DNA of 64,000 nt, taken from assembly GCF_003201205.1 (NCBI RefSeq), contig NZ_QICN01000007.1:124001-188000 (forward strand), written 5' to 3'. A program made the translations under genes and the position numbers. Each line of letters begins with the position of its first letter. Positions within the stretch are counted from its first letter, which is position 1. Of this stretch, positions 5,950-44,015 are shown one piece after another. The notes beneath the pieces are model-generated. The model was not told the origin of the DNA, did not search any database, and saw only the letters and a list, made by a program, of their open reading frames with translations. Source of the stretch: Sinimarinibacterium flocculans. GTDB taxonomy: Bacteria > Pseudomonadota > Gammaproteobacteria > Nevskiales > Nevskiaceae.

Positions 5950-5975
5950 CCTGGTACGGCGGCGGGGTGTGCGAC

Positions 5976-6617: not shown

Positions 6618-6678
6618 GTTGTCCTCCGATTATTCGTATCCGCGCCGGGCTTCCGGCGCCGCGCCTCAGGCCCGCCGG

Positions 6679-6707: not shown

Positions 6708-6726
6708 GTGCCGGGCAACGGCCACA

Positions 6727-6753
6727 AAAAAGGCACGCCATGCGTGCCTTTTC
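6727..6753 (-). terminator. Terminator of the two-cytochrome operon
   Basis: An A run, GGCACGC (6732-6738), loop CAT, GCGTGCC (6742-6748), then TTTT. Placed 24 bases beyond the cytochrome stop at 6777 and symmetrical, so it can act on either strand. Confidence 0.85.
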
Positions 6754-6776
6754 CGAACCACGGGCGCCGGCGCTGC

Positions 6777-7115: not shown

Positions 7116-7125
7116 GAAGCTGACC

Positions 7126-7449: not shown

Positions 7450-7702
7450 GTCTGGGACTCCAGGAAAACCGGGTGGGCCTTGAGCAAAGGCGCGATATGT
7501 TCCGGGAATTGCCCCGCGGGGTCAACGCGTCGGTACGTTGCCGGGATCGGTGCCGCCGTAAGCTGCTACCCTCGCGCCACCGCCCTGCACGTCCGTTCTC
7601 CGTGATCCGGCCAGCGTTTCGCATGCCTTCCGTCCCCACGTTTCTCCGTGCCGGCACCGGTTCTTCCTGCGAAGGCCCGGACCGCCTGCCGCGAGGGCCG
7701 CG

Positions 7703-9223
7703 ATGAGTGCCGTGATCCGGCCGGCGGCGGACGCCTCCCAGGAGATTGCGGCGGTTGACCTGGGGTCCAACAGCTTCCACATGATGGTGGCGCGCAGCGA
7801 CGGCGCCGAGGTGCAGGTCATTGATCGCCTGCGCGAACCCGTGCGCCTGGCCTCCGGCCTGGACGCCGACAAGCGCCTGCAACCGGACGCCGCGATGCGG
7901 GCGCTCTCCTGCCTGCAACGCTTCGGGCAACGCCTGCGCGGCATCCCCGCCGAGCGGGTGCGGGCGGTGGGCACCAACACGATGCGCAAGCTGCGCAACA
8001 GTCGCGATTTCCACGCCGCCGCGGAGGCGGCGCTCGGCCACGAGATCGAGATCATCTCGGGCATGGAGGAGGCGCGGCTGGTCTACGGCGGCGTCACCCA
8101 CGGCATGCGCGCCGAGCAGGCACGCCGCCTCGTCGTCGACATCGGCGGCGGCAGTACCGAGCTGATCATCGGCCGTCGCAGCGAGCCGCGCCTGATGGAA
8201 TCGGTTTCGCTGGGCTGCGTCGTGCACACGCAGCGCTTCTTCGAGGACGGCGAGATCTCGGCGGCGCGCTTCAAGCGGGCCCGCCTCGCCGCGCGTGTCG
8301 AGCTCGAATTTCTCGAGCGGCCCTACCGCCGCGCCGGCTGGGACGTCGCCATCGGTTCGAGCGGCACGATCCGCGGTATCTGGCGCGTGATCATGGGTCA
8401 GGGCTGGAGCCGGCAGCACATCACCCGCGAGGGGCTGGAGAAGACGATCGACCTCGTCCTGCAGCGCCGTCACGTCGACCAGATCGACTTTCCCGACCTG
8501 CGCGAGGATCGCCGACCGGTGTTCATCGGCGGACTCGCCGTGCTGGCCGGCATCTTCGACACGCTCGGCATCGAGGCGATGGAGACCTCGGAACGCGCGC
8601 TGCGCGAGGGCCTGATCTACGACCTGCTCGGCCGCCTGTCGAACCACGACGTGCGCGACGAGTCGGTGCAGGCAATGGCGGCGCGCTATGCGGTCGACGT
8701 CCGTCATGCCGGGGAGCTGTCGCGCACGGCGCTGAAGATCCTCGATCAGGCCGGCCGCAGCTGGAACCTCGACATGCGCGTGGCACGCCAGTTCCTGCAC
8801 TGGGCCGCGCAACTGCACGAGGTGGGGCTGGTGATCACGCACAACGGTTACCACAAGCACAGCCACTACATCCTGCGCAACAGCGACCTGCAGGGCTTCT
8901 CGCAGACCGAGCAGAAGCTGCTGGCGGCGCTGGTCCGCCTGCATCGCGGCCGCTTCGCACTGGAGACGCTCGACGAGCTGCCGACGATCTGGGTCGAGCC
9001 GGTCAAGCGCATGGCGATGATCCTGCGTCTGGCCTACCTGCTGCACCGCTCGCGCTCGCCCGACCTGCGCCCGCCGGTGCGCGTGACCGCGAACCGACGC
9101 GGCTACGAGCTGCAGTTCACGCAGAAGCACTGGCTCGACAAGCACCCGCTCACGCTCGCCGATCTCGAGCGGGAAGCCGAAGTGCTGGCGAGCGCGCAGC
9201 TGCGCCTGAAGCTCGCCAGCTGA
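7703..9223 (+). CDS. ppx: Exopolyphosphatase (Ppx/GppA family)
   Basis: A 506-residue enzyme that removes terminal phosphates from polyphosphate (and in the GppA relatives from pppGpp). The actin-like ATPase-fold motifs are visible: AAVDLGSNSFHMMVA at the N-terminus, VVDIGGGSTELI near residue 145 and a catalytic Glu in ISGMEEARLVY. The C-terminal HD-like part contains HEVGLVITHNGYHKHSHYI. The size fits the longer Ppx type rather than short GppA. It converges on ppk with 21 bases between stops, so polyphosphate synthesis and breakdown are transcribed separately. Confidence 0.93.
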   Translation: MSAVIRPAADASQEIAAVDLGSNSFHMMVARSDGAEVQVIDRLREPVRLASGLDADKRLQPDAAMRALSCLQRFGQRLRGIPAERVRAVGTNTMRKLRNSRDFHAAAEAALGHEIEIISGMEEARLVYGGVTHGMRAEQARRLVVDIGGGSTELIIGRRSEPRLMESVSLGCVVHTQRFFEDGEISAARFKRARLAARVELEFLERPYRRAGWDVAIGSSGTIRGIWRVIMGQGWSRQHITREGLEKTIDLVLQRRHVDQIDFPDLREDRRPVFIGGLAVLAGIFDTLGIEAMETSERALREGLIYDLLGRLSNHDVRDESVQAMAARYAVDVRHAGELSRTALKILDQAGRSWNLDMRVARQFLHWAAQLHEVGLVITHNGYHKHSHYILRNSDLQGFSQTEQKLLAALVRLHRGRFALETLDELPTIWVEPVKRMAMILRLAYLLHRSRSPDLRPPVRVTANRRGYELQFTQKHWLDKHPLTLADLEREAEVLASAQLRLKLAS

Positions 9224-29869: not shown

Positions 29870-31030
29870 TCAGCCCCCGGCCTGCGGTCCGCGCACGCGA
29901 TCGTAGAGATGGATCTCGCGCTCGGCGTCGACCACCAGCGCGAAGCTCACGCGCTCCTCGAGCTTGAACACCATCACCGTGCCGGCGAACACCTCGGGCA
30001 GCGGCACGTGCACGCCGCTGTACGGATCGCGTGTGCGACGTCCGGACTGGAACACGTTGAGCACGTGTCCCACCTCGACGCCGTCGACCGCCCCGCGGCT
30101 CAGGGTCACGACCTGGTACTGGCCGATCTGGGACACGCCGTCGAAGACCGAGATGATGCGGCCGGCGAGCCCGGCATCGGCCGGGCGCGGGTAGAAGTTG
30201 GCGGTGAAAGCGTCCGGCTCCGGTTCGAGCAGGCGGTCGCCGGCACGCGTCTCGCGGTAGCTGCGCGCGACCATCGCCGTCGCCGGCTCGCCGTAGCGAC
30301 GCACTTCCATGTCGGCGACCGGAATCGCCTCCCAGCCGAGGAACTCGCCGCTGTCCGGGTCGACGTAGCGCTCGCCGATGCGCACGGCGTCGTACTGATA
30401 GGTCTCGTCCGCCGGCATGTTGCGCACGTAGACCTCGCTGCCGGCGCCGACGACGAGGCGCGGATCGGCGAAGCCGAGCACGTAGGGCGCGGTCCGCAGG
30501 TCTTCCGCCGACACCACGCGGGCGCGGCGCAGGAAATCGCGGATCGCTTCCAGCGGAATCGTCGGGATCGCTGCCTCGAGCGGCAGTTCGCGCACCCGCG
30601 GCGACAGGTACTCGACGTCGAGAGCCTCGCGCGCGACCATCGGCCGACCATCGCGCCAGATCAGCGTCAGCACGTCGCCGGGGTAGATCAGATGCGGGTT
30701 GGCCACCTGGTCGTTCACGTACCAGATCTCGGGCCACTGCCAGGGCTCGAGCAGGAAGCGCTTCGACACATCCCACAGCGTGTCGCCGGGCTGCACCACG
30801 TAACGCAGCGGCGCGTCCTCGCGGACCTGCGCGACGTCGCGGGGACGGGCCACGGGGGGCGCCTGCTCCGCCATCGGCGTGGCGGTCGGCGCCGTCGACA
30901 CGGCGGGCGCTGCCGACGCAGGCGGGGGCACGTATTCGCGGCGTTCGCCGGTCTGCGCGCAGGCGGCAAGGCACGACAAGGCCACGGCGGCAATGCCGGG
31001 CAGCGTCCTCGAACCGGTATAATCGGGCAT
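29870..31030 (-). CDS. LysM-domain lipoprotein
   Basis: A 386-residue protein with a lipoprotein signal: hydrophobic [13 protein letters not shown] with the lipobox Cys near residue 24. After a Pro/Ala-rich linker comes a LysM module ([17 protein letters not shown] through [15 protein letters not shown], about residues 75-125) that binds peptidoglycan. The remaining C-terminal two thirds is the domain commonly fused to it in gammaproteobacteria next to dprA; its function is unknown. Start at 31030 has AAGGTG upstream. First gene of lysM-dprA-smg. Confidence 0.92.
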
Positions 31031-31068
31031 GGCGGCACCTTCCCCGCGGGTTGCGCCTGAACGGCCAA

Positions 31069-31098
31069 ACTGTAGACGGCTCAATCGTTTGCCGTCAA
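31069..31098 (-). promoter_or_regulatory. Sigma-70 promoter of lysM-dprA-smg
   Basis: On the minus strand TTGACG (31098-31093), 18 bases, TACAGT (31074-31069), 38 bases before the LysM gene start. Confidence 0.55.
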
Positions 31099-31136
31099 CT
31101 TTGAGGGTCATTTCTACACGCAGTCGGTTTGCCACG

Positions 31137-31643
31137 ATGGCTTTGCTCACGATTCTGCATCACCCCGACCCCCGCTTGCGCCAGAAGGCGCGGCCGGTGC
31201 GCGACTTCGACGAGGCCCTGCAGAAGCTGATCGACGACATGTTCGAGACCATGTACGCGGCGCCCGGAGTGGGTCTTGCCGCGACCCAGGTCGGCGTGCC
31301 GCTGCGCGTGGCGGTGATGGACTGTGCCGAGGACAAGGGCCAGCCGGCGCCGATGGTCATGATCAATCCCGAGATCAGCGAACCGCAGCAGGCCGAGATC
31401 ATGGAAGAGGGCTGCCTGTCGGTGCCCGGCGTCGGCGAGAAGGTCGAACGCTACGCGCGCCTGAAGATGCGCGCCCTCGACCGTCACGGCCAGCCGTGGG
31501 AGGTCGAAGCCGAAGGCCTGCTGGCACAGGCGATCCAGCACGAGATCGACCACCTGGACGGCAAGCTCTACATCGACCGGCTGTCGAGCATCAAGCGCGA
31601 GCGCCTGCTCAAGAAGCTGGCCAAGCAGCGGAACGCGGCGTGA
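31137..31643 (+). CDS. def: Peptide deformylase
   Basis: A 168-residue metalloenzyme that removes the formyl group from nascent proteins. The three motifs are complete: GVGLAATQ (44-51), EGCLS with metal ligand Cys93, and HEIDH with ligands His135 and His139 and catalytic Glu136. Start fixed by [18 protein letters not shown]. Followed by fmt, with which it forms the formylation cycle. Confidence 0.97.
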
Positions 31644-31725
31644 GACGAGCGGTTCTTCCTTTCCGGATTCCAGACCCGAAGCGGCGCTGCCGGGACCTGG
31701 CAGCCGGCCGCTGAAGGCTGCCCTC

Positions 31726-32640
31726 ATGCGGCTCGTCTTCGCCGGCACGCCGGAGTTCTCCGTCTCGGCGCTCGACGCCCTGCACGGCGCCGGGCACGAG
31801 ATCGTCGGCGTCTTCACCCAGCCGGATCGCCCTGCCGGCCGCGGACGCAAGCTCATGCCATCGCCGGTTGCGCAACGGGCCGCGGCGCTGGGGCTGCCGC
31901 TGTACAAGCCGGAAAAGCTGCGCGCAGAAGCGCAGGCCGAGCTGCGCCTGCTCGCGCCCGAGATCATGGTGGTCGTGGCCTACGGCCTGATCCTGCCGCA
32001 GGCAGTGCTCGACATCCCGCCTCGCGGCTGCCTCAACATCCACGCCTCGCTGCTGCCGCGCTGGCGCGGCGCCGCCCCCATCCAGCGGGCCATCGAGGCC
32101 GGCGACACCGAAACCGGCATCACCATCATGCGCATGGACGCCGGCCTCGACACCGGGCCGATGCTGCTGCGCGAGGCGGTGCCGATCGACGAAGACACCA
32201 CAGCGGCCGTTCTGCATGACCGCCTCGCGCCGCTGGGCGCGCGACTGATCGTGGAAGCGCTGGCTGCGCTCGAGGCGGGCACGCTGCGCGAACAGGCGCA
32301 GCCTGCCGCAGGGGCGACCTATGCGTCCAAGCTCAGCAAGGAAGAAGCGCGCGTCGCCTGGGCGTCCGACGCCGCAGGGCTTGCGCGGCGCGTTCGCGCG
32401 TTCAATCCGGTTCCGGTGGCCTGGAGCGAACTCGACGGCGAGCGCGTCCGCATCCTCGCGGCGCGGCCGGCGCCGGCCGTCGACCTGCCGCCGGGCACGA
32501 TCGTCGCCGCGGACGACCTGCGCGTCGCCTGCGGCAGCGGCAGCCTCGAGATCACGCGCCTGCAGTGGCCGGGCGGGCGTGTGGTGACGGCCCAGGAGGC
32601 GATGGCCGCGCGGCGACTCGGCGGGCGCCGCTTCGCATGA
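31726..32640 (+). CDS. fmt: Methionyl-tRNA formyltransferase
   Basis: A 304-residue enzyme that formylates Met-tRNAfMet with 10-formyltetrahydrofolate. The hydrolase-fold core has [10 protein letters not shown] at the start, [12 protein letters not shown] in the tRNA-contact loop and [20 protein letters not shown] with the catalytic Asn-His and downstream Asp ([11 protein letters not shown]). The C-terminal OB-like domain is complete. In most gammaproteobacteria rsmB follows directly; here it is 21 kb away. Confidence 0.97.
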
Positions 32641-32855
32641 ACGGCGAAAGGATGGAGAACGAGCCGGGCCTACCGCCGCCGCCGGAACGGCCGGACTGCT
32701 GCTTCGGCGGCTGCGCGCAGTGCGTGCTGGACGACTACACCGAGGCGATGGCGCGCTGGCAGGCGGAGGTCGACGCGATCGTCCGCGCCCGCGGGCGGCG
32801 CGCCGAAGGCGAACCTCAGGGCAGGCGGACGCCGCCGCCCGAACCGCCGCGGTAG
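32637..32855 (+). CDS. Small cysteine-rich oxidoreductase-like protein
   Basis: A 72-residue protein coupled to fmt by an ATGA overlap. The N-terminal half reads [21 protein letters not shown], a Cys-Cys-x3-Cys-x2-Cys pattern typical of the short oxidoreductase-like family (Pfam Oxidored-like), possibly a metal or Fe-S site. The C-terminal half is basic and proline rich, and its last 40 bases overlap, tail to tail, the end of the SH3 gene on the other strand. Function unknown. Confidence 0.7.
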
Positions 32856-33787
32856 GCCGCCTTGAGGGCCTGCACGAGTCCCGATTCGTGCACGAAACCG
32901 TCGCCCTGGGCCAGCTCGAACCAGCCCTGCTCCGCCGTCTCGACCAGCTGCACGGCGGTCCCCGGCTTGAGCCGCGCCACGACACGGCCGTTGATCGACG
33001 GCCGCTCACGGACTGCGAGGTGCGCGCTGCCGACGGTGGCCTGGATGAACGACGCCGCCGCCACCGTGACTGGTGCCGGCGTGCCCGCTTCATCGGCATG
33101 CTCGACCGACTGCAGTGCGCTCGCGTGGACGAAGCCCGGCTGGCCGTGAAGCGCGAACCAGTCGCCGCTCGCGGTCGGCGCGACCTGGATCACCGAGGCC
33201 GGCGCCAGCTTGGCCATGACCGGCGCCTTGAGCGACGGCGCCATGCGCAGGTTCACGCGCCCGTCGATGGTCACGGCAGTCAGGACCGCCTGCACCGGCA
33301 CGTCGGAGTCGGGCATGCGGCGCGCCGCCGCGATGATCTTGTCGCGCTCGCGGTTCATCGCGAAACGCCCGCCTTGGTGCAGCCGGCGTTCGAGCGTGGA
33401 GATCTCGTAGATCGCCACGGCGACGACCTCGTTGACGAGCGTGGCGCAGGGCGCCTGCTGGATCAGCGTGCGTCCGCCGACGGCCGCATCGTCCTCGTCG
33501 AGCGCCTTGCCCGACCATTCGAGGCCGAGCCTCAATTGGTAGAGGCAGGTGCGGGCGTCGAGCCGGCCGGCCACGACGTCGAGCTCGGGCGCGACGGCGC
33601 GCCGCTTGTCGCGGCTCGTGATCAGCGGCAGCTGAGTGGTATAGCGTTGCGGCGTGCGCAGTTCGCCGTGACGGACATCGTCGAGGAACGCGCCGAGTCC
33701 GTCCGCGAATGCGGACACCTCGGCCGAGGCCGACGATCCCGCCACAGCCGCCGCAAGCAGCGCGCCGCTGGCAAGGTGCTTCAACAT
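32816..33787 (-). CDS. Exported protein with two SH3-like domains
   Basis: A 323-residue protein starting at 33787 with a signal peptide cut near SSASA. Residues about 35-150 form an unrecognised helical region with an isolated Cys pair (RTCLYQL, APCATL). Two bacterial SH3 modules follow: DGRVNLRMAPSLKAPVMAKL near residue 175 and AHLAVRERPSINGRVVARL near residue 260. Such modules bind cell-wall peptides or proteins. It lies just downstream of the VIT/VWA exosortase target on the same strand (89-base gap) and may be part of that locus. Confidence 0.75.
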   Translation of the reverse strand: MLKHLASGALLAAAVAGSSASAEVSAFADGLGAFLDDVRHGELRTPQRYTTQLPLITSRDKRRAVAPELDVVAGRLDARTCLYQLRLGLEWSGKALDEDDAAVGGRTLIQQAPCATLVNEVVAVAIYEISTLERRLHQGGRFAMNRERDKIIAAARRMPDSDVPVQAVLTAVTIDGRVNLRMAPSLKAPVMAKLAPASVIQVAPTASGDWFALHGQPGFVHASALQSVEHADEAGTPAPVTVAAASFIQATVGSAHLAVRERPSINGRVVARLKPGTAVQLVETAEQGWFELAQGDGFVHESGLVQALKAAYRGGSGGGVRLP

Positions 33788-33876
33788 GGTCCCCCCGGAC
33801 CCCACAACCATCACCATGGTAAGCGCGACCAGGGGGCGCACGCCAGAAACCGGGCGCTGGTAAATGCACTTCACCC

Positions 33877-35982
33877 CTAAACAGGGGGGGCGGCCGCGCA
33901 AACCGCGCCCCGCCGGCGCCGCAGCAGGCCGGCCGCCAGCAGCAATGCCAGCATGCCGCCCCAGACCGAAGCCTCGGGCCCGGCCGCGCCGACGAAGCTG
34001 TTCGCGGTCGAACCGTAGGCGCGGGGCGTGACGCCCGCGACCGGCGGCAGCGGCACCGCAGCGTCGACGGTGTCCTGCGGCGCCGCGTTGTAGATCTGTT
34101 CGGACACCGCGACGAAAGCGGTCCAGCGCGTGACCAGCGAAAACTGCAATCCCAGATCGGTGACTTCGTTCTTGAGCGTCTCGAAGTCCGGCACCGGCTC
34201 GCCGCGCGCTTGGAAGTACATCGGCGGCAGCGTCATCCGCGTCATGGCGTCGCGGATGGCGGCCCGCGCCCACAGACGCGCCACCGGCGCATCCTTCGCG
34301 GTGCGCGCAGGCAGTTCGACCGGCAGCATCAAGGTCCCCGCACGCCCGCGCGACCGGCCGTGCACGCGAATCCGGCCGGACCCGGGCTGTGTGTAGCGCC
34401 CCTGGATGCGCAACGACTGCCCGGCGAACAGGTCCGGTATCGTCTCCGGCACGATGTCGGTGACCGGCAAGCCGTTCCAGTCGATGGCGATGTCGGTCAG
34501 CACCGGCGACTGCAGGCGCTCGCTGAGTTCGGCGGCGACGCGCTCCACGTCCTCGGTCGGGTCCATGTAGCGGCTGAAGCCGCGGCCGGTGCGTCCGAGC
34601 TCGTCGAGCAGATGCCGGTTGACGCCGGTGCCGACACCGAAGGCGTACAGGCGCGCGCCGCCGCGCAACTCCCCGACTAGGCGCAGGATCTCGGCCTCGT
34701 TGCCGATGTAGCCGTCGGTGAGAAAGGTGACGATGCGCAGGCTGCCGGCCGGCGCCGGGACTTCCAGCGCCTGGCGGATGCCGCGCGCCATCATCGTGCC
34801 GCCTTCGCCGCGCAGGCGGTCGGTGTAGGCCAGGCCGCGGCGGATGTTGTCGGCGCTCGCCGGCAACGGCGCCTCGCTGAACTCGGTGGCGTCGTCGCTG
34901 AAGCGGATGATGCGGAAGCTGTCGGTCGGCCGCAGCTTGCGCAGCGCCTCGCGCATGAAGGCCTTGCTGGCGTCCATCGGCAGACCGTGCATGGAGCCGG
35001 AGCAGTCGAGCAGGAACACCATTTCGCGCGGCGTGACGTCCGCATCGGCCGGCGCCGCCGGCGGCTCGATCAGCAGCGAGAAATAGCCCCCCGTCTCGTC
35101 GGCCTGCACCAGCAGCCCGGCGTTCGTCGCCGCGCCGGCGAGGCGGTAACGCAATACGAAATCGCGGTTGTCGATCGTGCGGCCGTGCCGCAGGCCGACC
35201 GTCCAGCGTGTCGCGGTCTCGGCCTGCGTCGCGATCGCGTGCGTGCGGCTCTCGACGCGCTGCACCGGCAAGCCGCCGTCGATGCGGATGCGCAAGCCGA
35301 CGCGCGCATCGTCGATGGTGGGCGGCAGGTCGAGGCCGAACACCGGCGCGTAGTCCGGCAACGCCGCCAGCGCCCACGTCCCTTCGCGAACCGCAGCCGG
35401 CTCGTCCACCGGTGCCGGCGGCCGATCGGCGCCCGGCGGCTGGAAGCGCGGACCGACGACCAGCGGCAGCACCAGTTCGTAGTCGCCGTCGACCTTCGGC
35501 ACGGTCTGCACGTAGCGCAGCGTCACGCGGACCGGCAGGCCCGGCATCAGGTTCGCGATCTGCTGCGTGAACATGTTCGGCCGGTGCTGCTTGAGCAACG
35601 CGGCGGCGCGACCTTCCGACTTCGCGCGCTCGAACGTGCGCTCGGCCTGCTGCACCTCCTGGATCTGCGCGCGGATGCGTTCGGCGCCGACCTCCATCCA
35701 CATCTCGTGAACGGCGGCGTCGTGGTTCAGCGGAAACAGGTACGTCGCGTGCATCGCCTGCTGCGCCGGATTGGCAAAGGTCTGCACGATGCCCACCGAA
35801 GCCAGATCGCCGGCGATGTCCACTTCGATATCGGTCTTCAGCAGCGGCAGGCGCACCACGCGGCCATCGATATCGGCCTCGATCGTGCCGGCCAGCCGCG
35901 GCGCCTCGGCACGCGCCGCGAAAGCCGGCACCAGGAACAGGGCGAGGACGAAACTGACGAAAAACAGCAAACGGTTGCGCAT
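33877..35982 (-). CDS. VIT and VWA domain surface protein with exosortase-type sorting signal
   Basis: A 701-residue secreted protein. The signal peptide ends near FAARAEA. A VIT domain covers about residues 40-170 (FANPAQQAMHATYLFPL), a VWA domain about 330-510 with the metal site Asp-Cys-Ser-Gly-Ser (FLLDCSGSMHG) and FLTDGYIGNE. The C-terminus has a short GPEASVW motif, a hydrophobic helix (GGMLALLLAAGLL) and an RRRR cluster: the three-part layout of a PEP-CTERM-like signal, with about ten extra residues after the arginines. This domain pairing is that of the marine proteobacterial sortase targets (TIGR03788), yet the adjacent enzyme is an exosortase. Its Shine-Dalgarno overlaps the exosortase stop. 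Confidence 0.85.
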   Translation of the reverse strand: MRNRLLFFVSFVLALFLVPAFAARAEAPRLAGTIEADIDGRVVRLPLLKTDIEVDIAGDLASVGIVQTFANPAQQAMHATYLFPLNHDAAVHEMWMEVGAERIRAQIQEVQQAERTFERAKSEGRAAALLKQHRPNMFTQQIANLMPGLPVRVTLRYVQTVPKVDGDYELVLPLVVGPRFQPPGADRPPAPVDEPAAVREGTWALAALPDYAPVFGLDLPPTIDDARVGLRIRIDGGLPVQRVESRTHAIATQAETATRWTVGLRHGRTIDNRDFVLRYRLAGAATNAGLLVQADETGGYFSLLIEPPAAPADADVTPREMVFLLDCSGSMHGLPMDASKAFMREALRKLRPTDSFRIIRFSDDATEFSEAPLPASADNIRRGLAYTDRLRGEGGTMMARGIRQALEVPAPAGSLRIVTFLTDGYIGNEAEILRLVGELRGGARLYAFGVGTGVNRHLLDELGRTGRGFSRYMDPTEDVERVAAELSERLQSPVLTDIAIDWNGLPVTDIVPETIPDLFAGQSLRIQGRYTQPGSGRIRVHGRSRGRAGTLMLPVELPARTAKDAPVARLWARAAIRDAMTRMTLPPMYFQARGEPVPDFETLKNEVTDLGLQFSLVTRWTAFVAVSEQIYNAAPQDTVDAAVPLPPVAGVTPRAYGSTANSFVGAAGPEASVWGGMLALLLAAGLLRRRRGAVCAAAPPV

Positions 35983-35994
35983 GACTCGGACTCC

Positions 35995-37587
35995 CTAGAT
36001 TGCGTCAGGTACGCGGTGAACGAGATGGACGGGCGCCGACGGCAGGTCGAGCGCGCGCAGCAGGGCGCTCTCCCAGTCGCGACGTTCGGGGTCTTCGGCG
36101 CCGGGCCACGGCGCGATGCGCTGGACCATCGTCCACGTCGCCTCCGGCGCGCGCAGCCAGCGCCACACGGCCTCGCCAACGCTGGCGGCATGCTCGCCAC
36201 GGTCTGACACGTAGGACACGGCAACGCGCCAGCTACGACCGCCCGCATCGGTGGCGCGGTAGAGCGCGCTCGGCAGGCCGGCGTGTTCGAGGCCGAGGTA
36301 GTCGACGCGATAGCCGCTGCCGCGCAGGCACTCGTCCGGCGCATGCAGATGCCGCAGCGGCGCACGCGTGGACACCAGCAGCAGACCGAACGGACCGTAA
36401 GAGGCTTTCGCGGCACCGCCGCCATAGCGCGCGAAATACTCGCGCTCGACCGCATCGAGGGCTTGCGGCTGCGCCGCGTAGGCGCCGAGCACGACGGGTG
36501 CCTGCGGCGGCGGCGTGTCGCGCACGACGTCGACCGGTCGCGCCGGCGCCGACACGGCGACGATGGCGAAACCGAGCAGCAGCCAGGCCCAGGGCCGTGC
36601 GCGCGCCGGTGCCGGGTTCGCGCTACCGATCGCCGGCGCGGCGGCGTCCGGGTCGAGCGGGGCGGACCGAGGCTCGCGATCGCCACGCGCGGCACCGGCA
36701 CCGGCACCGGCAAGGACGCGTTCCCTCGCCGGCGAAGAGAACGGGGTGATACGTCGCGCCCACAGCAGGACCGGCACTGCCGCCAGCAGCAGGGCACACA
36801 GCCCCAACGCTTCGTGTGCCGGCCCGTTCATCAGATCGAGCTGCGGCGCCTGCACCAGACCGACGGCGAGCGCGACGATGCGCAGCGTGTTCGACAGCCA
36901 GGCCCCGGCCAGCGTGAACAGCAGGCCGATCAGCGCCTGAGCCGGCCGCGGACGTCGCAGCGCACACAGGCCGGCGTACAGCGTCAGCACCAGCATCAGT
37001 CCGCGGGCCCCGGAGCACGGCAGATCGACGAGCAGGTCCTGCCCGTCCAGCAGCAGGCGGGTGCCGACGCACAGCAGTCCATCGGTGAACCAGCCGAGCA
37101 GTTCGCACGCTCCGGATGCCGACAGTTGCTGCAGGCCGTAGCCGGCCAGGCGCTGCACGACGCGCTCCAGCGGCAGCGAGAACGCGAACAGCAGCGACAG
37201 CCAGAACGGCGACACGGCGCGCTCGCGCGTCCGCAGTCCGGCCAGCGTCGCCAGCGCGTACACGTCGAGTGCCAGCGTCAGCGCACCGATCACGTTGACG
37301 CGCAACACCTGGCCGACCAGCCGTACCAGGGCGCTGACGGCCAGCAGCGCGAAGGCATAGCGGCGGTTCTGCGCAGATCCCGGCTGCTGCTCGCTGGCCC
37401 ACGACCACAGGAACAGCGCGGCGACTGCCAGACCGACCCACAGCCCCTGCGGGTTGTAGGCGGCGTCGCGCCAGCTGCGCAGCAGCCACCCCGCCGGTTC
37501 GATGGCAAGCAGCAGGGCCGCGACTAGCAACACCGGCGCCGGTCCGATCCGGTCGACCCCCACCCTCGCTCGCATCGCCGCCACCAT
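35995..37587 (-). CDS. Exosortase with C-terminal EpsI-like domain
   Basis: A 530-residue membrane protein. The first 290 residues are a polytopic exosortase with the catalytic triad Cys191 (LPCSGARGL), Arg236 (SNTLRIVAL) and His258 (NGPAHEALG). Then a disordered Arg/Ala-rich linker, a further membrane segment (WAWLLLGFAIVAV) and an exported domain of about 150 residues containing HLHAPDECLRG, resembling EpsI (DUF3485). Fusion of exosortase and EpsI-like parts is known in some exosortase classes (I suspect XrtT but cannot test it). It should cleave and transfer the VIT/VWA protein encoded 12 bases downstream. The start has GGAG upstream. Confidence 0.85.
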   Translation of the reverse strand: MVAAMRARVGVDRIGPAPVLLVAALLLAIEPAGWLLRSWRDAAYNPQGLWVGLAVAALFLWSWASEQQPGSAQNRRYAFALLAVSALVRLVGQVLRVNVIGALTLALDVYALATLAGLRTRERAVSPFWLSLLFAFSLPLERVVQRLAGYGLQQLSASGACELLGWFTDGLLCVGTRLLLDGQDLLVDLPCSGARGLMLVLTLYAGLCALRRPRPAQALIGLLFTLAGAWLSNTLRIVALAVGLVQAPQLDLMNGPAHEALGLCALLLAAVPVLLWARRITPFSSPARERVLAGAGAGAARGDREPRSAPLDPDAAAPAIGSANPAPARARPWAWLLLGFAIVAVSAPARPVDVVRDTPPPQAPVVLGAYAAQPQALDAVEREYFARYGGGAAKASYGPFGLLLVSTRAPLRHLHAPDECLRGSGYRVDYLGLEHAGLPSALYRATDAGGRSWRVAVSYVSDRGEHAASVGEAVWRWLRAPEATWTMVQRIAPWPGAEDPERRDWESALLRALDLPSAPVHLVHRVPDAI

Positions 37588-37752
37588 CGATCCGCTCCGC
37601 TGTCTTCGATGGCGGGCAGTCTGTGTGCCGGCCGTGCAGGCGCCGACGCGACGATGTGCAGCTTCAGCGGAACTTCGTGCAGATGGTGTGCAGACTGGCG
37701 GCGACGCGACAGGGCGCTGCTAAGCTGCGATCCGTTCCCCGGACCGATTCCG

Positions 37753-38436
37753 ATGACGAAGATCCTGGTCGTCGACGACGACGCCAACATCCGCGAGGTC
37801 GTCTGCTTCGCGCTCGCCAAGGCCGGCTATGCGACGACGACCGCGGCCGACGGCGAACAGGCCCTCGCGCGCTTCGTTGCGGAACGGCCGGATCTCGTCG
37901 TGCTCGACATCCTCATGCCGGAGCTCGACGGCACCGAGGTCTGCCGACGGCTGCGCGCCGACCCGCGCAACGCCGGCGTACCGATCATCTTCCTGAGCTC
38001 GAAGGACGACGAGATCGACCGCATCCTCGGACTCGAACTGGGCGGCGACGACTACATGGCCAAGCCGTTCTCGCCACGCGAACTGGTGGCGCGCGTGCGC
38101 GCGCGGCTGCGCCGTCCGGCCGCCGACGCGGCACCGGCGCTGCTGCAGCATGGCCGCCTGCGCCTGGACCCGGAGCAGTACAAGGCCTGGTGGGACGAAC
38201 GCGAGCTGGTGCTGACGCTGACCGAATTCGGCATCCTGCGCACCCTGATCACCCGGCCCGGCCGCGTGTGCACGCGCGACCACCTGATGAACGAGGCCTA
38301 TGCGCTGCACAGGATCGTGTCCGACCGCACGATCGACAGCCACCTGCGCCGCGTACGGGCCAAGCTCGACGAGGTAGGAGCAGATCCGATCGAAACCGTC
38401 CATGGCGTCGGCTACAAGCTTGGACCCTGCACATGA
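37753..38436 (+). CDS. OmpR-family response regulator
   Basis: A 227-residue regulator. The receiver has the acidic pocket DDD at 8-10, phospho-acceptor Asp52 (LDILMPELDG) and Lys in YMAKPFSPRE. The C-terminal winged helix ends SDRTIDSHLRRVRAKLDE then GYKLGPCT. It is divergent from the exosortase gene (165 bases between starts) and is followed by a histidine kinase after an unusual spacer with a second copy of its own 3' end. Likely controls the exosortase target. Confidence 0.93.
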   Translation: MTKILVVDDDANIREVVCFALAKAGYATTTAADGEQALARFVAERPDLVVLDILMPELDGTEVCRRLRADPRNAGVPIIFLSSKDDEIDRILGLELGGDDYMAKPFSPRELVARVRARLRRPAADAAPALLQHGRLRLDPEQYKAWWDERELVLTLTEFGILRTLITRPGRVCTRDHLMNEAYALHRIVSDRTIDSHLRRVRAKLDEVGADPIETVHGVGYKLGPCT

Positions 38437-38512
38437 GCCTCGCATCCCGCGCCGCACCGGCCTGGGCGTCGCCGCCATCCCTGGCGCGGCAGCATCGCGT
38501 CCACCACCCCCT

Positions 38513-38534
38513 GCCCGCACATCCCTGTGCGGGC
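38513..38534. repeat. Hairpin element, copy 1
   Basis: GCCCGCACA, loop TCCC, TGTGCGGGC: perfect 9-bp stem. The hairpin and its flank (CCCCT before, GCG-x-TCGCCGG after) recur at 38701-38722. The opposite strand shows the AGGGATG-type loop common in dispersed hairpin repeats of gammaproteobacteria. Confidence 0.75.
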
Positions 38535-38543
38535 GTTCGCCGG

Positions 38544-38568
38544 GGTGAATGTCCACCGGACATTCACC
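38544..38568. repeat. Perfect 11-bp inverted repeat beside the hairpin element
   Basis: GGTGAATGTCC (38544-38554), loop ACC, GGACATTCACC (38558-38568). Only 9 bases from copy 1 of the hairpin element and 13 before the duplicated regulator end; probably the second hairpin of a compound REP-like element. Confidence 0.75.
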
Positions 38569-38580
38569 TTGCTCCGGCTC

Positions 38581-38634
38581 ACCCGATCGAAACCGTGCAT
38601 GGCGTCGGCTACAAGCTCGGGCCGTGCGTATGAG
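38581..38634 (+). pseudogene. Duplicated 3' end of the response regulator gene
   Basis: These 54 bases repeat 38384-38437 with about 47 identical positions and in the same orientation. Translated they give HPIETVHGVGYKLGPCV plus a stop, against DPIETVHGVGYKLGPCT at the true end of the regulator. There is no start or upstream domain, so it is a non-coding remnant lying between regulator and kinase. Confidence 0.8.
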
Positions 38635-38668
38635 AAGCCGCTTGTCACAGGCGTCGTCGTAGCGGTCC

Positions 38669-40315
38669 ATGGCGCAACCACCGGCCTCTTCCCGACCCCT
38701 GCCCGCACATCCCTGTGCGGGCGCTCGCCGGCTGCGCCTGCGCACGGTGCTGCTGCTGGTGAATCTGGTGATTCTCGCGCTGCCGCTCGGCGGCATCACC
38801 TGGCTGCGGCTGTACGAGAGTGCCCTGATCCGCCAGACCGAATCCGAGCTGATCGCGCAGGCCGCGTTCATCGAGGCGGCGTACCTTGCGGCGCTCGCGC
38901 GCCAGAAGCGCGTGCCGGGAGACTACGGCACGCCGGCGATCGCCCCGCCGCCGCCGAGCGATCCGGAGGGTCGCTGGCGACCGCGCTGGGCCGATCTCGA
39001 CCTCGCCACCGATCCGGTGCTGCCGGCCCCGGCCGATCCGCAACCGACCACGCGCAAACCGGACCGCATTGCGCGCACGATCGGCCGCGAGCTCACGCCG
39101 ATGCTGCGTGCCGCGCAGCAGACGACACTGGCCGGCATGCGCATCGTCGATGCCGGCGGCCTGATCGTCGCCTCGACCGGCGACGAGCGCGCCGACGACA
39201 TCGGCCTGTCGCTCGCGGCGCAGGACGAGGTGCGGCGCGCGCTGACCGGCGAAGCTGTGAGCGCGATGCGCTGGCGCGGCGCGGAAGCACCCCCACCGCC
39301 GCTGGATTCGATCTCGCGCGGCACGCGCATCCGTGTCTACGTCACCGAACCGATCGAGCGCGACGGTCGCGTGATCGGTGCCGTGCTGCTGGTGCGTACG
39401 CCGGCCAACATCCGGCAGGCCATCTACGGTAAGCGCAAGCCGCTGCTGCGCGCCGGCATCGGCCTGCTGCTCGTCGTCATCACGCTGACGCTGCTGATGT
39501 CGGTGACGATCACCGGGCCGGTGAAACGTCTGATCGAGCAGGCGCGCCGCGCCGCACGCGGCGAGCAGAACGCGGTGGTGCCGCTGAAGCGCCCGGGCAC
39601 GCGCGAGATCGCCGAGCTGTCGGAGACGGTGGCCGGCATGGCACAGACTCTCGAAGCACGGGCGCGCTACATCCGCGACTTCGCCGCGCACGTCTCGCAC
39701 GAGTTCAAGACGCCGCTGACCGCGATCCAGGGGTCGGTCGAACTGCTGCGCGACCATGGCGAGGGTATGTCCGTCGACGAGCGCGCGCGGTTCCTCGGCA
39801 TTCTGGCTGCCGATGCGACGCGGCTCGAACGGCTCGTGCAGCGCCTGCTCGAGCTGGCCCGCGCCGACATGCAGCCGGTGAGCGGCGGCAGTGCAGACCT
39901 CGCCATCGTGGCTGCTGCGGTCACCGCACGCCACCGCGAAAGCGGCCTGTCGGTCGAGATCGACGGCGGCGCGCCCTTGCACGTCACGGTCGCCGCCGAA
40001 CTGCTCGATTCGATGCTCGGCAGCCTGCTCGACAACGTCCGGCAGCACGCGGGCGCTGGCGCCCGCGCGCGCTTGGCATGGCGCGACACCGCGGACGACG
40101 TCGAGCTCGACGTGTCCGACGACGGCAACGGCATCTCACCAGCGAACCGCGCACGCATCTTCGAACCCTTCTTCACCACCGCGCGCGACGGCGGCAACAC
40201 CGGCCTGGGCCTCGCGATCATCCGTGCACTGCTCGCCGCGCACGGCGGCGGCATCGAGCTGCTCGACAGTGCGCGCGGCGCCCACTGGCGCCTGCGGCTG
40301 CCGCGCGCGGAATAA
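38669..40315 (+). CDS. Sensor histidine kinase
   Basis: A 548-residue kinase. A membrane segment at about residues 26-46 is followed by a periplasmic sensor domain of about 205 residues (with a Pro-rich insert near 90-120), a second membrane segment around 258-278, a HAMP linker, the phospho-acceptor His344 in HVSHEFKTPLTAI, and a catalytic domain with DNVRQHAGAG, SDDGNGIS and GNTGLGLAI. It resembles CreC/BaeS-type kinases and pairs with the regulator upstream. The first 23 residues are written by copy 2 of the hairpin repeat (38701-38722), so the N-terminus has been remodelled or the true start is slightly downstream. Confidence 0.9.
   Translation: MAQPPASSRPLPAHPCAGARRLRLRTVLLLVNLVILALPLGGITWLRLYESALIRQTESELIAQAAFIEAAYLAALARQKRVPGDYGTPAIAPPPPSDPEGRWRPRWADLDLATDPVLPAPADPQPTTRKPDRIARTIGRELTPMLRAAQQTTLAGMRIVDAGGLIVASTGDERADDIGLSLAAQDEVRRALTGEAVSAMRWRGAEAPPPPLDSISRGTRIRVYVTEPIERDGRVIGAVLLVRTPANIRQAIYGKRKPLLRAGIGLLLVVITLTLLMSVTITGPVKRLIEQARRAARGEQNAVVPLKRPGTREIAELSETVAGMAQTLEARARYIRDFAAHVSHEFKTPLTAIQGSVELLRDHGEGMSVDERARFLGILAADATRLERLVQRLLELARADMQPVSGGSADLAIVAAAVTARHRESGLSVEIDGGAPLHVTVAAELLDSMLGSLLDNVRQHAGAGARARLAWRDTADDVELDVSDDGNGISPANRARIFEPFFTTARDGGNTGLGLAIIRALLAAHGGGIELLDSARGAHWRLRLPRAE
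38701..38722. repeat. Hairpin element, copy 2, inside the kinase N-terminus
   Basis: The same 22 bases as 38513-38534, with matching flanks on both sides. In frame it encodes the LPAHPCAG part of the kinase leader, before the first membrane helix. Confidence 0.7.
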
Positions 40316-40320
40316 AAAGC

Positions 40321-42168
40321 TCAGTCCTGCGGCAGCGCGCTCAGCGGCACCGCCGGCACGACGATGCTCGACGGGTGCGCCGCGTCGCTGTACACGGTCA
40401 TGGCACCGACCAGCTGGTCGACCAGATCGACGAGCGGCGGCAGGCCATGCGGGAAATCGCTGGCGCCGACGGTGACGCGCAGCCGATAGCCTTCCTTGAT
40501 CACGAAGCTCGACGGAAACACCTCGACCGGCAGGTGCACCACGGTGTTCATGCCGACATCCTCGCGCGAGGCTTCGGTGAACGGATGCCAGGGCTGGATC
40601 ATCTGACCGTCGAGGTAGCGCGAGCGCGCCGCATCGACCTGGCGCAGCGACGCCGTGAGGATGCCGTTGGTCAGCTCGCGCGAGGTGCCGTCCGGAGAGA
40701 CCTCGGTGACGCGCACGAGCACGCCGGCATCGAGCGCGGTCGTCGAGATGTGTAGGTCGGCCTGGATCGGCCCGTTGACCACGTAGTCCTCGGCCATCGC
40801 GTCGGTGGTGAAGGCGACCTCGAACAGCGGATTCTCGTTGAGGTTGTTGCTGTCGAAGCACGGCAGCGGCACCAGGCCGAGGATGCCGGCGGTCCATTGC
40901 GAGGTGCTGGTCGAGCAGATGCCGTTGAGCGGCTGCTGCAGCACCACATTGCCTGCTTCGTCGGTTCCCGGTGCCTCGCGGCTGAGGCTGCGGTCGCCGC
41001 GCAGATACCAGCGTTCCGCGCGTGCCTGCGGATGCGGCCAGCCGGTGGTCGTCGCGTAGCGCTCGGCGCCGTAGTAGTACTGCGTGACGTTCGGCACTGC
41101 GGCCGCGCCCACGTCCATGCCCCGGAGATACTGGTCGAACCACATCAGCGCGATGCGGTCGAGGTCCGGCACGTCGTTGGCCGGCAGACCGGCGCCCTGG
41201 GAGCCGTCGAGGTGCTGCCACGGCCCGATCAGCAGCTTCGTGGTCGTGTTGCGCGAGATCGCCTCGTAGAGCAGCGGCTCGCCGCGCTGGAAGATGTCGT
41301 TGAGACCGCCGACGATGAAGGTCGGGATGCGGATACGGTCGGCCTGCTCGATCGGCGAGCGCGTGCGCCAGAACGGGCCGTCGTAGTTGTAGCCGCCGAC
41401 ACCGATCGCCGACTGGGCGATCACCGGCACCTGGAAATTCAGCAGCGCGCTGGTCAGGTGTTCGAGGATCGTCACCGGCGCCGCCGGATCGGGCTCCACC
41501 GGCAGCACGCCGAGCGCGGTGACCAAGCCCATCCACAGCGGAATGAAGCCGATGTTGGTCTGCCCGCCGGTGAAGACGATGTCGCGGTAGCCGTCGGCCA
41601 TCGGCACGATGGCGAACACGGCCTTGTGCGCCGGGTGCTGGTGCGCCGCCGTGTAGAGCTGGGTGATCGCCATGAACGATGCGCCCCAGGTGCCGACGGT
41701 GCCGTTGCTCCAGGTCTGCTTCGACGCCCAGTCGATCACCGCCAGATAGTCGGCCTGCTCGGTCTCGCCGAAAGCCTCCCACTGCCCCTGCGACAGCCCG
41801 GTGCCGCGCACGTCCACCGACAGGTGCGCGTAGCCGCGCTTGACCAGGTAGTCGTTCGACGCCGGGATCGCCGGCACGCTCTTGTTGTAGCCGGTCTGCG
41901 TGAGGATGACCGGGAACGGCTGTTCGACCGTGTTGCCGCTGGCGTCGGCCGGCAACGCCACGCTGGCCGACAGCTCGATGCCGTCCGCCATCGTGATCTT
42001 CAGGCCGGAGATCTGGGCGACGCCCGGATACGCCTCCGCGCGCTCGTAGGTGAACCACTTGGCGCCGCCGCCGTCGCCGACCGGTGCCGGCGCGTCGCTG
42101 CCGTCTCCGCAGGCGGCCAGCCCGAGCACCATCGTCGCGGCCCACAGCCGCAGGATCTTCGCATTCAT
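40321..42168 (-). CDS. CocE/NonD-family hydrolase, lipoprotein
   Basis: A 615-residue exported enzyme with a lipobox (LGLAACGDG, Cys near residue 20). An alpha/beta-hydrolase domain with the nucleophile in GTWGASFMAITQL, acid in GGLNDIFQRGEP and His in GPWQHLDGSQG is followed by a jelly-roll C-terminal domain (residues about 420-605), the pattern of X-Pro dipeptidyl-peptidase and cocaine-esterase relatives. Native substrates may be acyl esters or amides. It converges on the kinase gene with a 5-base gap. Good GGGGAG ribosome site. Confidence 0.87.
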   Translation of the reverse strand: MNAKILRLWAATMVLGLAACGDGSDAPAPVGDGGGAKWFTYERAEAYPGVAQISGLKITMADGIELSASVALPADASGNTVEQPFPVILTQTGYNKSVPAIPASNDYLVKRGYAHLSVDVRGTGLSQGQWEAFGETEQADYLAVIDWASKQTWSNGTVGTWGASFMAITQLYTAAHQHPAHKAVFAIVPMADGYRDIVFTGGQTNIGFIPLWMGLVTALGVLPVEPDPAAPVTILEHLTSALLNFQVPVIAQSAIGVGGYNYDGPFWRTRSPIEQADRIRIPTFIVGGLNDIFQRGEPLLYEAISRNTTTKLLIGPWQHLDGSQGAGLPANDVPDLDRIALMWFDQYLRGMDVGAAAVPNVTQYYYGAERYATTTGWPHPQARAERWYLRGDRSLSREAPGTDEAGNVVLQQPLNGICSTSTSQWTAGILGLVPLPCFDSNNLNENPLFEVAFTTDAMAEDYVVNGPIQADLHISTTALDAGVLVRVTEVSPDGTSRELTNGILTASLRQVDAARSRYLDGQMIQPWHPFTEASREDVGMNTVVHLPVEVFPSSFVIKEGYRLRVTVGASDFPHGLPPLVDLVDQLVGAMTVYSDAAHPSSIVVPAVPLSALPQD

Positions 42169-42291
42169 AGGACTCTCCCCTTCTTCGCACCGCGCTCACG
42201 GCACCGGCAGTGCACCGGACCGCTTGCGCATCATGGCCGGCATCCTGCCAGCGTCCGCGCCGCGACGGATTGGCCGCAGCGCCCCACGGGC

Positions 42292-43692
42292 TCACATCAC
42301 GCGCGACATCACGGCGGGCGCCTGCTCGATCGCGTCCTCGATGATCTCCAGCGTATGCCGGCACCCGTCGCGGTCCGCCGGGCCGCCGAGGCAGACGCGC
42401 ACCGCTTCCGGCGCGGCGCCGCTGACGGTGAAGGTGTCGGACACGACAACACCGACCCCGTGCGCGCGCAGGTGCGTCGCGAACTCGATGCGCGTCCACG
42501 GCGCCGGGACCGCAAGCCACAGATGGAAGGCTTCCGGCTTCGTGAAGTAGTCGGCGCGACGCAGCACCTGCACGGCGATGCGCTGGCGCGCACGCGACTC
42601 CTCGCGGATCGCCAGCGTCATCGCGCGCACGGTGCCGTCGTCGATCCAGCGCGTGGCCAGACGGACCAGCGGCGGCGGAGCCATCACCGTCGTCGTGCGC
42701 ATGATCGCCGACAGTCGCGCCGCATAGCGTGCGCTGGGCAGCGAGACGTAGCCGATACGCATGCCCGCACCGAGGCACTTGGAGAAACCGGTGACATGGA
42801 AGGTCAGCTCCGGCGCCAGCGCCGCCAGCGCGACCGACCGCTGCTGCGGCAGGCAGGCGTAGGGATCGTCCTCGATGATCGGCACGTTGTAGCGCCGCGC
42901 GATCTCGGCCACGGCCTCGCGACGTTCGGGCGACATCACCGCCGTCGTCGGGTTGTTCAGTGTCGGGTTCAGGTACAGCGCCTTCGGCAAGTCGGCCGCG
43001 CAGAGCGCGCCGAAGGCCTCCGGATCGATGCCCGCATCATCCGCCGGCAGACCGGCGAGACGGATGCCCAGCTGCGCCGCCAGGCCCTTGATACCCGGAT
43101 AGGTCACGGCCTCGCAGGCGATGCTGTCGCCGGGCCGCGCGAGCAGGGCGAACAAGGCCAGCAAGGCCCCCTGGGCACCGGGACAGACCAGCACCCGCGA
43201 ACCGTCGACTCCCGGCACATGCCGGGACAGCCAGCGCGCCCCGGCCTCGCGGTCCTCGGGCATGCCGCCGAATTCCTGGTAGCGCAGCATCGACCACGGA
43301 TCGCCGTCGGCGGCGAGGCTGGCGAAGCCGTCGCGCAGACGCTGCAACAAGGCCGGGTCGCGCGGCTCGGGCGGCATGTTCATCGTCATGTCGATGATGC
43401 CCGCCGGCGGCGAGCGCCGTACCGGCCCGCTGCTCAGCGTCTCGCGCACGAAGCTGCCGCTGCCGGCGCGGCTGTCGATCAGGCCGCGACGTTGCGCCTC
43501 GGCATAGCCGCGCGCAACGGTACTGAAATTGAGATCGAGCGCCCCTGCGAGCGAGCGCAGCGTCGGCAGCCGCTGCAGCGCGGCGAGCTGGCCGGACTGG
43601 ATATCCGCGGCGAGCGCATCGGCAAGGGCGACATAGGCCGGTTTGCTGCTGTTGCGGATCGCCGCGGCCCAGCGGCTGGTTTCGTTGGACAT
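42292..43692 (-). CDS. MocR-type transcriptional regulator (GntR-aminotransferase fusion)
   Basis: A 466-residue protein with an N-terminal GntR winged helix (residues about 10-80, RLPTLRSLAGALDLNFSTVARGY) joined to a fold-type I aminotransferase domain. The PLP lysine is in TGFSKCLGAGMRIGY and NPTLNNPTTAVMS is the substrate-cofactor loop. It is divergent from the Nit1 cluster and the obvious candidate for its local regulator. MocR proteins often sense an amino compound that reacts with PLP. Start chosen at 43692 to give the usual short leader. Confidence 0.9.
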   Translation of the reverse strand: MSNETSRWAAAIRNSSKPAYVALADALAADIQSGQLAALQRLPTLRSLAGALDLNFSTVARGYAEAQRRGLIDSRAGSGSFVRETLSSGPVRRSPPAGIIDMTMNMPPEPRDPALLQRLRDGFASLAADGDPWSMLRYQEFGGMPEDREAGARWLSRHVPGVDGSRVLVCPGAQGALLALFALLARPGDSIACEAVTYPGIKGLAAQLGIRLAGLPADDAGIDPEAFGALCAADLPKALYLNPTLNNPTTAVMSPERREAVAEIARRYNVPIIEDDPYACLPQQRSVALAALAPELTFHVTGFSKCLGAGMRIGYVSLPSARYAARLSAIMRTTTVMAPPPLVRLATRWIDDGTVRAMTLAIREESRARQRIAVQVLRRADYFTKPEAFHLWLAVPAPWTRIEFATHLRAHGVGVVVSDTFTVSGAAPEAVRVCLGGPADRDGCRHTLEIIEDAIEQAPAVMSRVM

Positions 43693-43744
43693 GTCGGGAC
43701 ATGCGGAAAGGACAGGGGTGCCCCGTTGATCGCAAGAATCGTTC

Positions 43745-43755
43745 CGCATTGATCG
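43745..43755 (+). promoter_or_regulatory. CGCATTGATCG direct repeat, copy near the regulator gene
   Basis: Identical to 43961-43971, 216 bases away. A shorter TTGATCGCA repeat also occurs at 43726-43734, 23 bases before its second copy at 43749-43757. Candidate operator for autoregulation of the divergent MocR gene. Confidence 0.4.
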
Positions 43756-43869
43756 CATATCCGAACGAAACAAATCGCCGCTTTGCTGCACGCAATCGGC
43801 GCAGCACATGCACCGCCCGGAGGCACGATCGCCTGCTGCAGGTGCGCCCAGATTTCTTTGAAAACAGGG

Positions 43870-43887
43870 TGTTTCGCAGTGTTTCGC
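43870..43887 (+). promoter_or_regulatory. Tandem TGTTTCGC repeats
   Basis: Two TGTTTCGC words (43870-43877 and 43880-43887) at a 10-base period, the inverted word GCGAAACA again at 43991-43998 just upstream of the sigma-54 box. One helical turn spacing suggests a regulator-binding site. Confidence 0.4.
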
Positions 43888-43945
43888 GGCGACGGCGAAA
43901 GCCCCCGCCGGACGCCCGGCTGCGCCGGCAGAAAAATCTTCTGAG

Positions 43946-43971
43946 CATTCCGGAATGTCTCGCATTGATCG
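43946..43971 (+). promoter_or_regulatory. Palindrome and second CGCATTGATCG copy near the sigma-54 box
   Basis: CATTCCGGAATG (43946-43957) is a perfect 12-base palindrome; CGCATTGATCG follows at 43961-43971. Both lie 29-54 bases upstream of the -24 element, where an activator or MocR operator would be expected. Confidence 0.4.
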
Positions 43972-43999
43972 GATCATCACCTCGAATCCGGCGAAACAA

Positions 44000-44015
44000 T
44001 TGGCACATCGATTGC
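44000..44015 (+). promoter_or_regulatory. Sigma-54 (-24/-12) promoter of the Nit1 cluster
   Basis: TTGGCAC-N5-TTGC: the -24 GG (44002-44003) and -12 GC (44014-44015) are separated by exactly 10 bases, as sigma-54 requires, and flanking bases match TTGGCACG-N4-TTGC at all but one position. Transcription should start near 44027, giving a 50-base leader before the first gene. Confidence 0.8.

Follow-up and report, generated by a model that had tools for sequence, protein, structure and literature searches.

A predicted GTGCA operator links an exosortase T–VIT/VWA target pair to a CreB-like regulator

In a 64,000-nucleotide stretch of Sinimarinibacterium flocculans DNA (contig NZ_QICN01000007.1, positions 124,001 to 188,000; hereafter the window), the exosortase gene xrtT and the gene for its neighbouring target, a protein with VIT and VWA domains, stand divergently from the genes of a two-component system. 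We found here a predicted operator of GTGCA repeats that links XrtT loci to the regulator of this system, and found that relatives carry creD behind the same operator in the same chromosomal slot. We consider it likely that xrtT and the target gene are, as one operon, an effector of a Cre-type envelope-stress regulon, in which they are interchangeable with creD. All four genes lie where a first-pass annotation of this DNA had placed them, and the set of exosortase, target and two-component genes that it described is real. The features of the locus are as follows.

33877..35982, minus strand: VIT/VWA target, 701 amino acids, assigned from Pfam and TIGR03788 scores
35995..37587, minus strand: xrtT, exosortase T, 530 amino acids, a membrane exosortase domain and a C-terminal alpha/beta domain, assigned by NF033770
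37656..37692, plus strand: operator predicted for the response regulator, GTGCA-N16-GTGCA-N6-GTGCA, in the interval that separates xrtT from the regulator gene, conserved at xrtT of relatives
37721..37726, plus strand: candidate −10 element TAAGCT of the regulator promoter, 28 nucleotides (nt) past the operator
37753..38436, plus strand: response regulator, OmpR/PhoB-type, CreB-like by the CreB model; the open frame is 37609–38436 (plus), and the likely start, ATG at 37753, was read from the sequence
38669..40315, plus strand: sensor histidine kinase, CreC-like; its periplasmic sensor region is predicted to be alpha/beta

The exosortase matched the NCBIfam XrtT model (NF033770) over its full length with 658.3 bits against a cut-off of 250, sharing the catalytic Cys/Arg/His and the C-terminal domain with that family and showing no sequence difference from it, and the target matched Pfam VIT (PF08487, 95.7 bits) and VWA_3 (PF13768, 51.5 bits). 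The first-pass description of a dedicated exosortase with a single neighbouring VIT/VWA target is thus borne out. The catalytic residues it named, Cys191, Arg236 and His258, are invariant across 15 aligned XrtT proteins and fall within helices 190–211, 215–246 and 256–279 of a predicted structure model (mean predicted local distance difference test score, pLDDT, 71.4); a fold search with this model gave no match at E ≤ 0.001. The additional C-terminal domain, which had been read as an EpsI-like fusion, is present and is part of the NF033770 model, but its EpsI identity is supported only weakly: EpsI models gave no match to it at E ≤ 10, and an hhalign comparison with the C termini of other exosortase fusions aligned an H-x-P-x-x-C-x-x-G-x-G motif at a P value of 0.0021 and a probability of 13.5%.

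Exosortases cut their targets at a PEP-like motif and then either free them or join them to a lipid or sugar of the envelope. The window target has a signal peptide-like N terminus, as judged by eye, and ends as the first-pass annotation had it, in GPEASVW, a hydrophobic helix and RRRR (GPEASVW...LLRRRRG). This is the tripartite layout of PEP-CTERM type, but with PEA rather than PEP as the motif; 14 of 16 aligned targets have PEP (GPEP, TPEP, APEP or VPEP) at the position of the window's GPEA. The metal-site residues of the VWA domain (D326, S328, S330, T396 and D423) are invariant in 16 aligned homologues. A scan for PEP-like C termini over 445 kb (the window and 20 further stretches, about 10% of the genome) returned one implausible match. 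XrtT would act on its neighbour as a transpeptidase or protease. The literature searched held nothing on XrtT or XrtN as an exosortase, so we found no experimentally tested role for XrtT and its target; it also held nothing joining exosortase, sortase and 'VIT domain'.

Across the genus, genomes have XrtT, the target and the kinase as a set or lack all three. XrtT occurs in 3 of 11 genomes and, among ten congeners, the target and a kinase orthologue (749 and 759 bits) are found in exactly the two that have XrtT, the remaining kinase matches reaching at most 104.2 bits among the matches listed. The divergent kinase/regulator pair of the first-pass annotation is therefore co-inherited with the exosortase. 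In the window's own genome, TIGR02602 recognised one exosortase (E ≤ 0.001), and TIGR03788 gave one full-length match and one partial match of 187 profile positions at the same threshold. XrtT also exceeded the NF033770 cut-off in 4 of the 369 genomes sampled from the class and in 3 of the 85 sampled from the order, which rules out the system as a feature unique to the window. Relatives with 42–49% identity in the best segment were called by similarity at 15 loci of a genome-contig collection, all from metagenome assemblies (three are contigs of G068, G199 and G038), and 18 XrtT loci were compared in total.

CreB and CreC were the best-scoring models of the regulator (226.8 bits, cut-off 273) and of the kinase (177.5 bits, cut-off 356). 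The kinase has HisKA and HATPase_c domains over their cut-offs and a weak Cache_WalK match under its cut-off. Its structure model (mean pLDDT 67.8) matched generic histidine kinases in a fold search, best WalK–YycH, which points to no particular sensor ligand.

The divergent regions contain GTGCA three times at a fixed spacing, GTGCA-N16-GTGCA-N6-GTGCA (offsets 0, 21 and 32; 15 fixed bases). Of the 18 XrtT loci, 14 contain this exact operator, each of them once, positioned at the conserved xrtT start or shortly before it, and at least GTGCA-N6-GTGCA is present in 17 of them. Locus L039 has three copies at 10/11 spacing, and L037 and L046 have the N6 pair only, with just 109 nt before xrtT available in L046. 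The two-component system is divergent and adjacent in eight loci (the window, L039, L040, L041, L043, L047, L093 and L094); it lies farther off in three (about 9 kb in L035, on another contig in L036, and with the regulator 7 kb away in L044), and in seven (L034, L037, L038, L042, L045, L046 and L048) the available stretch lacks this clade. The exact operator is nevertheless kept at xrtT in seven of the ten loci without an adjacent two-component system. This retention argues against the possibility that the two-component system controls only itself or an unrelated envelope regulon and has xrtT and the target as chance neighbours.

The window has just one exact match to the operator, and matches with three mismatches stood at chance level. 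We searched 40 genome handles, of which 39 are distinct because G457 repeats G199, and let the first gap vary from 5 to 16. Of 14 distinct XrtT genomes, 13 (the window's among them) had a single triple site, which always lay at xrtT, and the eight congeners without XrtT had none. The reversed pattern, used as a control, matched once in the 40 handles, and three sites of other spacing (G381, G402 and G279) had no visible link. Of 213 loci, 47 carry the operator, many of the 47 being stretches that overlap at the same sites. Mean information across 17 sites, of which three lie elsewhere than at XrtT loci, was 1.29 bits per column in the motif against 0.62 and 0.23 in the flanks, although only the flanks and spacer are fairly comparable because every site was selected for the motif. 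In a count made after the motif had first been noticed by eye, no other 5-mer upstream of this two-component system recurred at 11-nt pitch as often as GTGCA, which did so in 9 of 14 regions against a shuffle maximum of 2. Control loci totalling about 612 kb contained one exact GTGCA-N6-GTGCA pair, with about 1.2 expected. An element matching TAAGCT exactly or with one mismatch lies 27–29 nt past the last repeat in six of eight scored loci with an adjacent regulator gene (L094 has one outside the scanned interval and L047 has none) and in one of seven scored loci without; its position would fit activation. The tie between xrtT–target and the CreB-like regulator through the predicted operator is thus well supported by sequence.

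What the operator precedes elsewhere points to creD. The 40-handle search gave three sites of exact spacing outside XrtT genomes, all beside an orthologous regulator gene or a creD. In genome G399 the site separates an orthologous regulator–kinase pair (368 and 593 bits) from a divergent creD, which PF06123 matched with 436 bits (cut-off 23). G417 has two sites: one lies between the orthologous pair, whose regulator start is about 480 bp off, and a 289-residue VIT remnant of the target, and the other lies about 110 bp before a creD (424 bits). Two further weak NF033770 matches of the order sample, G392 and G382, were also examined. In G392 the exact operator is followed by what remains of the xrtT N terminus, without room for the catalytic residues, and then by creD, in a slot between rsmB and fmt–def; G382 has an operator pair and a similarly short xrtT remnant, with no creD found beside it. 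The LysM–def–fmt side of the slot is common to G399, G392, G382 and the window; rsmB stands on the other side in G399, G392, G382, G413, G411 and G417, and 14 kb away in the window. Comparison of these genomes indicates that, within one family, the same slot behind the same operator holds xrtT–target, remnants of it, or creD. The swap visible in the data is between xrtT–target and creD, and the operator precedes creD in G399, G417 and G392. Because creD occupies the same operator and slot in relatives, xrtT–target probably either substitutes for CreD in function or acts together with it.

According to the accessible part of one study, TTCACN6TTCAC is the cre/blr tag before creD, with TTCACACTCGCTTCAA as its form in Stenotrophomonas (PMC4689548); we found the exact tag before creD in E. 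coli. The N6 pair of the window has the geometry of this published tag. Best-scoring models, pair geometry and creD under the same operator in relatives all liken the window system to CreBC (BlrAB)–CreD, from which it differs in a half-site of GTGCA rather than TTCAC, in having three copies, in regulator and kinase scores under the cut-offs, and in an effector that is an exosortase with a VIT/VWA protein instead of creD. An exact TTCAC pair is absent from the window, which therefore lacks the TTCAC-N6-TTCAC tag itself.

A second exosortase type, XrtQ, provides an independent case. In G311, creB (315.8 bits, cut-off 273) and creC (578 bits, cut-off 356) both exceed their NCBIfam cut-offs and are followed by TTCACACTCGCTTCAC, a canonical cre tag, and then by a VIT/VWA target and an exosortase Q that scored 310 bits (cut-off 270). 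The 18-kb stretch of G311 gave no match to a CreD query, and the VIT/VWA–XrtQ pair stands where creD would be expected. The XrtQ–target locus of G399 has an exact GTGCA-N6-GTGCA pair upstream, so that a Cre-type repeat is present at both examined loci with XrtQ over the cut-off. The XrtQ-like systems of G301 and G159 score below it (147 and 139 bits) and combine the same two-component clade as XrtT loci with GTGCA repeats; what is a fused part of XrtT is encoded in them by a gene of its own. Such XrtQ/XrtN-type systems (NF012182, TIGR04477) resemble the window in having a VIT-domain target adjoining an exosortase, but the exosortase is another one, and in G301 and G159 the target is XrtN-like by model, with a VIT domain that starts near residue 300. 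Among the matches listed in the literature searched, no link between an exosortase and CreBC was found. The two XrtQ-like systems lie at positions 8075–14417 of L142 and 1519–8358 of L053, and the L053 kinase gene (6646–8358) is interrupted by an in-frame stop codon.

On this basis, a CreC-like kinase would sense an envelope signal and phosphorylate the CreB-like regulator, which would bind the direct GTGCA repeats in the divergent intergenic region, driving both xrtT–target and its own regulator–kinase operon. The target would be exported and then held by its C-terminal helix until XrtT cuts it at the GPEA/PEP motif and either frees it or couples it to a lipid or sugar of the envelope, and the pair may serve as a functional alternative or partner of CreD. 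The identities of the genes, the conservation of the operator and the exchange within the slot are apparent in the sequences themselves; we infer from them the binding of the regulator to the operator, the signal, the cleavage and the equivalence to CreD. An envelope role is proposed because, in the accessible parts of the respective studies, loss of penicillin-binding protein 4 (PBP4) activates CreBC in Pseudomonas (PMC2654508) and loss of creD impairs envelope integrity in Stenotrophomonas (PMC4689548).

Several observations weigh against this reading. The regulator and kinase fall outside CreBC as the model cut-offs define it. CreC stands as a possible sister group of the kinase clade at 86/83, and a tree that held this two-component clade together with the class GN sortase pair was not rejected (approximately unbiased (AU) test, P = 0.084). 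The target of L047 (positions 4735–6834) has neither PEP nor PEA but APAAG, although its XrtT keeps the catalytic residues; L038 has no motif and a broken target; and L037, which belongs to G450, has only the pair. The triple operator is missing from G301, which has a pair, and from G311. Conservation of the regulator pair without the exosortase, which the first-pass annotation had named among the observations that would count against its proposal, was found in part. The kinase clade (E ≤ 1e-70) occurs in 9 of the 369 class-sample genomes, comprising all four with XrtT over the cut-off, two with an XrtQ-like system and three (G001, G305 and G074) with no XrtT or XrtQ match at E ≤ 0.001. These three lack the triple operator; near their regulator genes G001 has one pair with one mismatch, G305 has none, and G074 has a one-mismatch pair about 650 bp away, as chance would give.

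Among the alternatives, a housekeeping sorting pair, in which XrtT and its target serve an exopolysaccharide or biofilm surface as EpsH and PEP-CTERM proteins would and Cre-type control is a lineage detail, fares best but is improbable. Membership of XrtT in the exosortase superfamily and the PEP motif of most targets fit it. The single target beside the enzyme does not, nor does the finding that no exopolysaccharide genes were recognised in the open frames of window positions 30000–44000, and Cre-type repeats recur with XrtQ.

A slightly smaller chance attaches to the proposal of the first-pass annotation that an unrelated transpeptidase replaced the sortase of a class GN system while target and regulators stayed. 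Class GN systems (in the literature searched, the term occurred in one paper, on the genus Denitromonas) have a homologous VIT/VWA target, and a two-component system often lies nearby, as at XrtT loci. The window target scored 454.7 bits with TIGR03788, which supports homology but is under the cut-off of 551.65 and places it outside the class GN targets. No class GN sortase that could process the target was found in the genome (TIGR03784, no match at E ≤ 0.001), as the annotation had supposed. The TIGR03784/03785/03787/03788 profiles that it suggested gave no score over a cut-off, whereas the XrtT profile did; the regulator reached 164.6 bits with TIGR03787 (cut-off 335.7) and the kinase 76.6 bits with TIGR03785 (cut-off 612.2). 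The sorting signals differ too, the window target being PEP-like and a GN target giving a weak LPxTATN match (15.4 bits, cut-off 32).

In the target tree, the 16 XrtT targets formed one clade (100) and the 19 GN targets another (99), with neither nested in the other and VIT/VWA relatives without an enzyme nearby branching beside each; the rows came from 16 of 18 XrtT loci (L038, broken, and L045, cut, left out) and 19 of 20 GN loci (L099, cut, left out). The kinases and regulators associated with XrtT fell into one clade, separate from GN, that also takes in two XrtQ-like systems and three orphan pairs. Support for this clade was 100/99 in the kinase tree and 94/93 in the regulator tree, and GN had 100/100 in both trees, which are modest in size and hold five GN rows; quick trees with 14 rows from the 20 GN loci gave 100 for GN kinases and 86 for GN regulators. 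The recognition helix reads DRTIDSH in this regulator clade and D[SA]TITSH in three GN regulators compared. The GTGCA operator of the window system is absent from GN systems, with no GTGCA pair at 11-nt pitch upstream of 14 GN regulators, no GTGCA-N6-GTGCA in 20 GN loci and no triple operator in the GN loci L096–L115. A deeper shared origin of the two two-component clades, as the AU test allows, would favour the replacement. Because the two-component and target clades are separate and the regulator and kinase fall below the GN models, however, the data do not read as a sortase replaced with all else retained.

Chance neighbourhood of xrtT–target and a self-regulating two-component system is as unlikely as that replacement: the three of nine kinase-clade genomes without XrtT or XrtQ and the position of the operator in a shared divergent region at the eight loci with an adjacent two-component system would fit it, but, beyond the operators kept at a distance, the kinase is present in all four XrtT genomes of the 369 and accompanies XrtT and the target throughout the genus.

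Other observations concern the relatives and surroundings of these genes. Distant VIT/VWA proteins (L137–L149) end in a glycine-rich stretch, a hydrophobic helix and a mostly basic tail, which by eye resembles a GlyGly-CTERM signal; a GlyGly-type model gave no match at E ≤ 0.05 in the four tested, and this protein family may thus be served by a third kind of sorting chemistry. The two-component clade also has members at L161, L162 and L163, in genomes with no XrtT or XrtQ match; the orphan pairs adjoin a divergent lgt in G001 and genes without a visible link in G305 and G074. In the window, the last 52 nt of the regulator gene are duplicated (38386–38437 and 38583–38634, 88%), and a 36-nt element with an inner palindrome, resembling a repetitive extragenic palindromic (REP) element by eye, occurs twice (38508–38543 and 38696–38731, 97%), its second copy now within the first codons of the kinase gene. 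This arrangement (38386–38731) looks like an insertion at the regulator–kinase junction. The locus is flanked by a gene whose product by eye looks like a double SH3-type protein (32816–33826), and an S15 peptidase gene (40321–42168); homologues of both adjoin the XrtT locus of G413, and the S15 homologue is also present in G411 and G417.

A broader reading, to which we give about even odds, is that pairs of a VIT/VWA protein and an exosortase are interchangeable with CreD as main effectors of Cre-type systems in the same envelope-maintenance role, and that an exosortase pair has entered the slot on two or more independent occasions, with XrtT after GTGCA repeats and with XrtQ after a canonical TTCAC tag beside genuine creBC. 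If this is true, CreD and sorted VIT/VWA proteins would serve one envelope-maintenance role. With the operator linking enzyme and target to one Cre-type regulator, stress that induces creD would be expected to induce xrtT–target as well, and one might substitute for the other. The replacement of the pair by creD in related bacteria suggests what exosortase–target pairs may be for. The operator motif finds members of the regulon with no need for protein homology, and here it led directly to creD.

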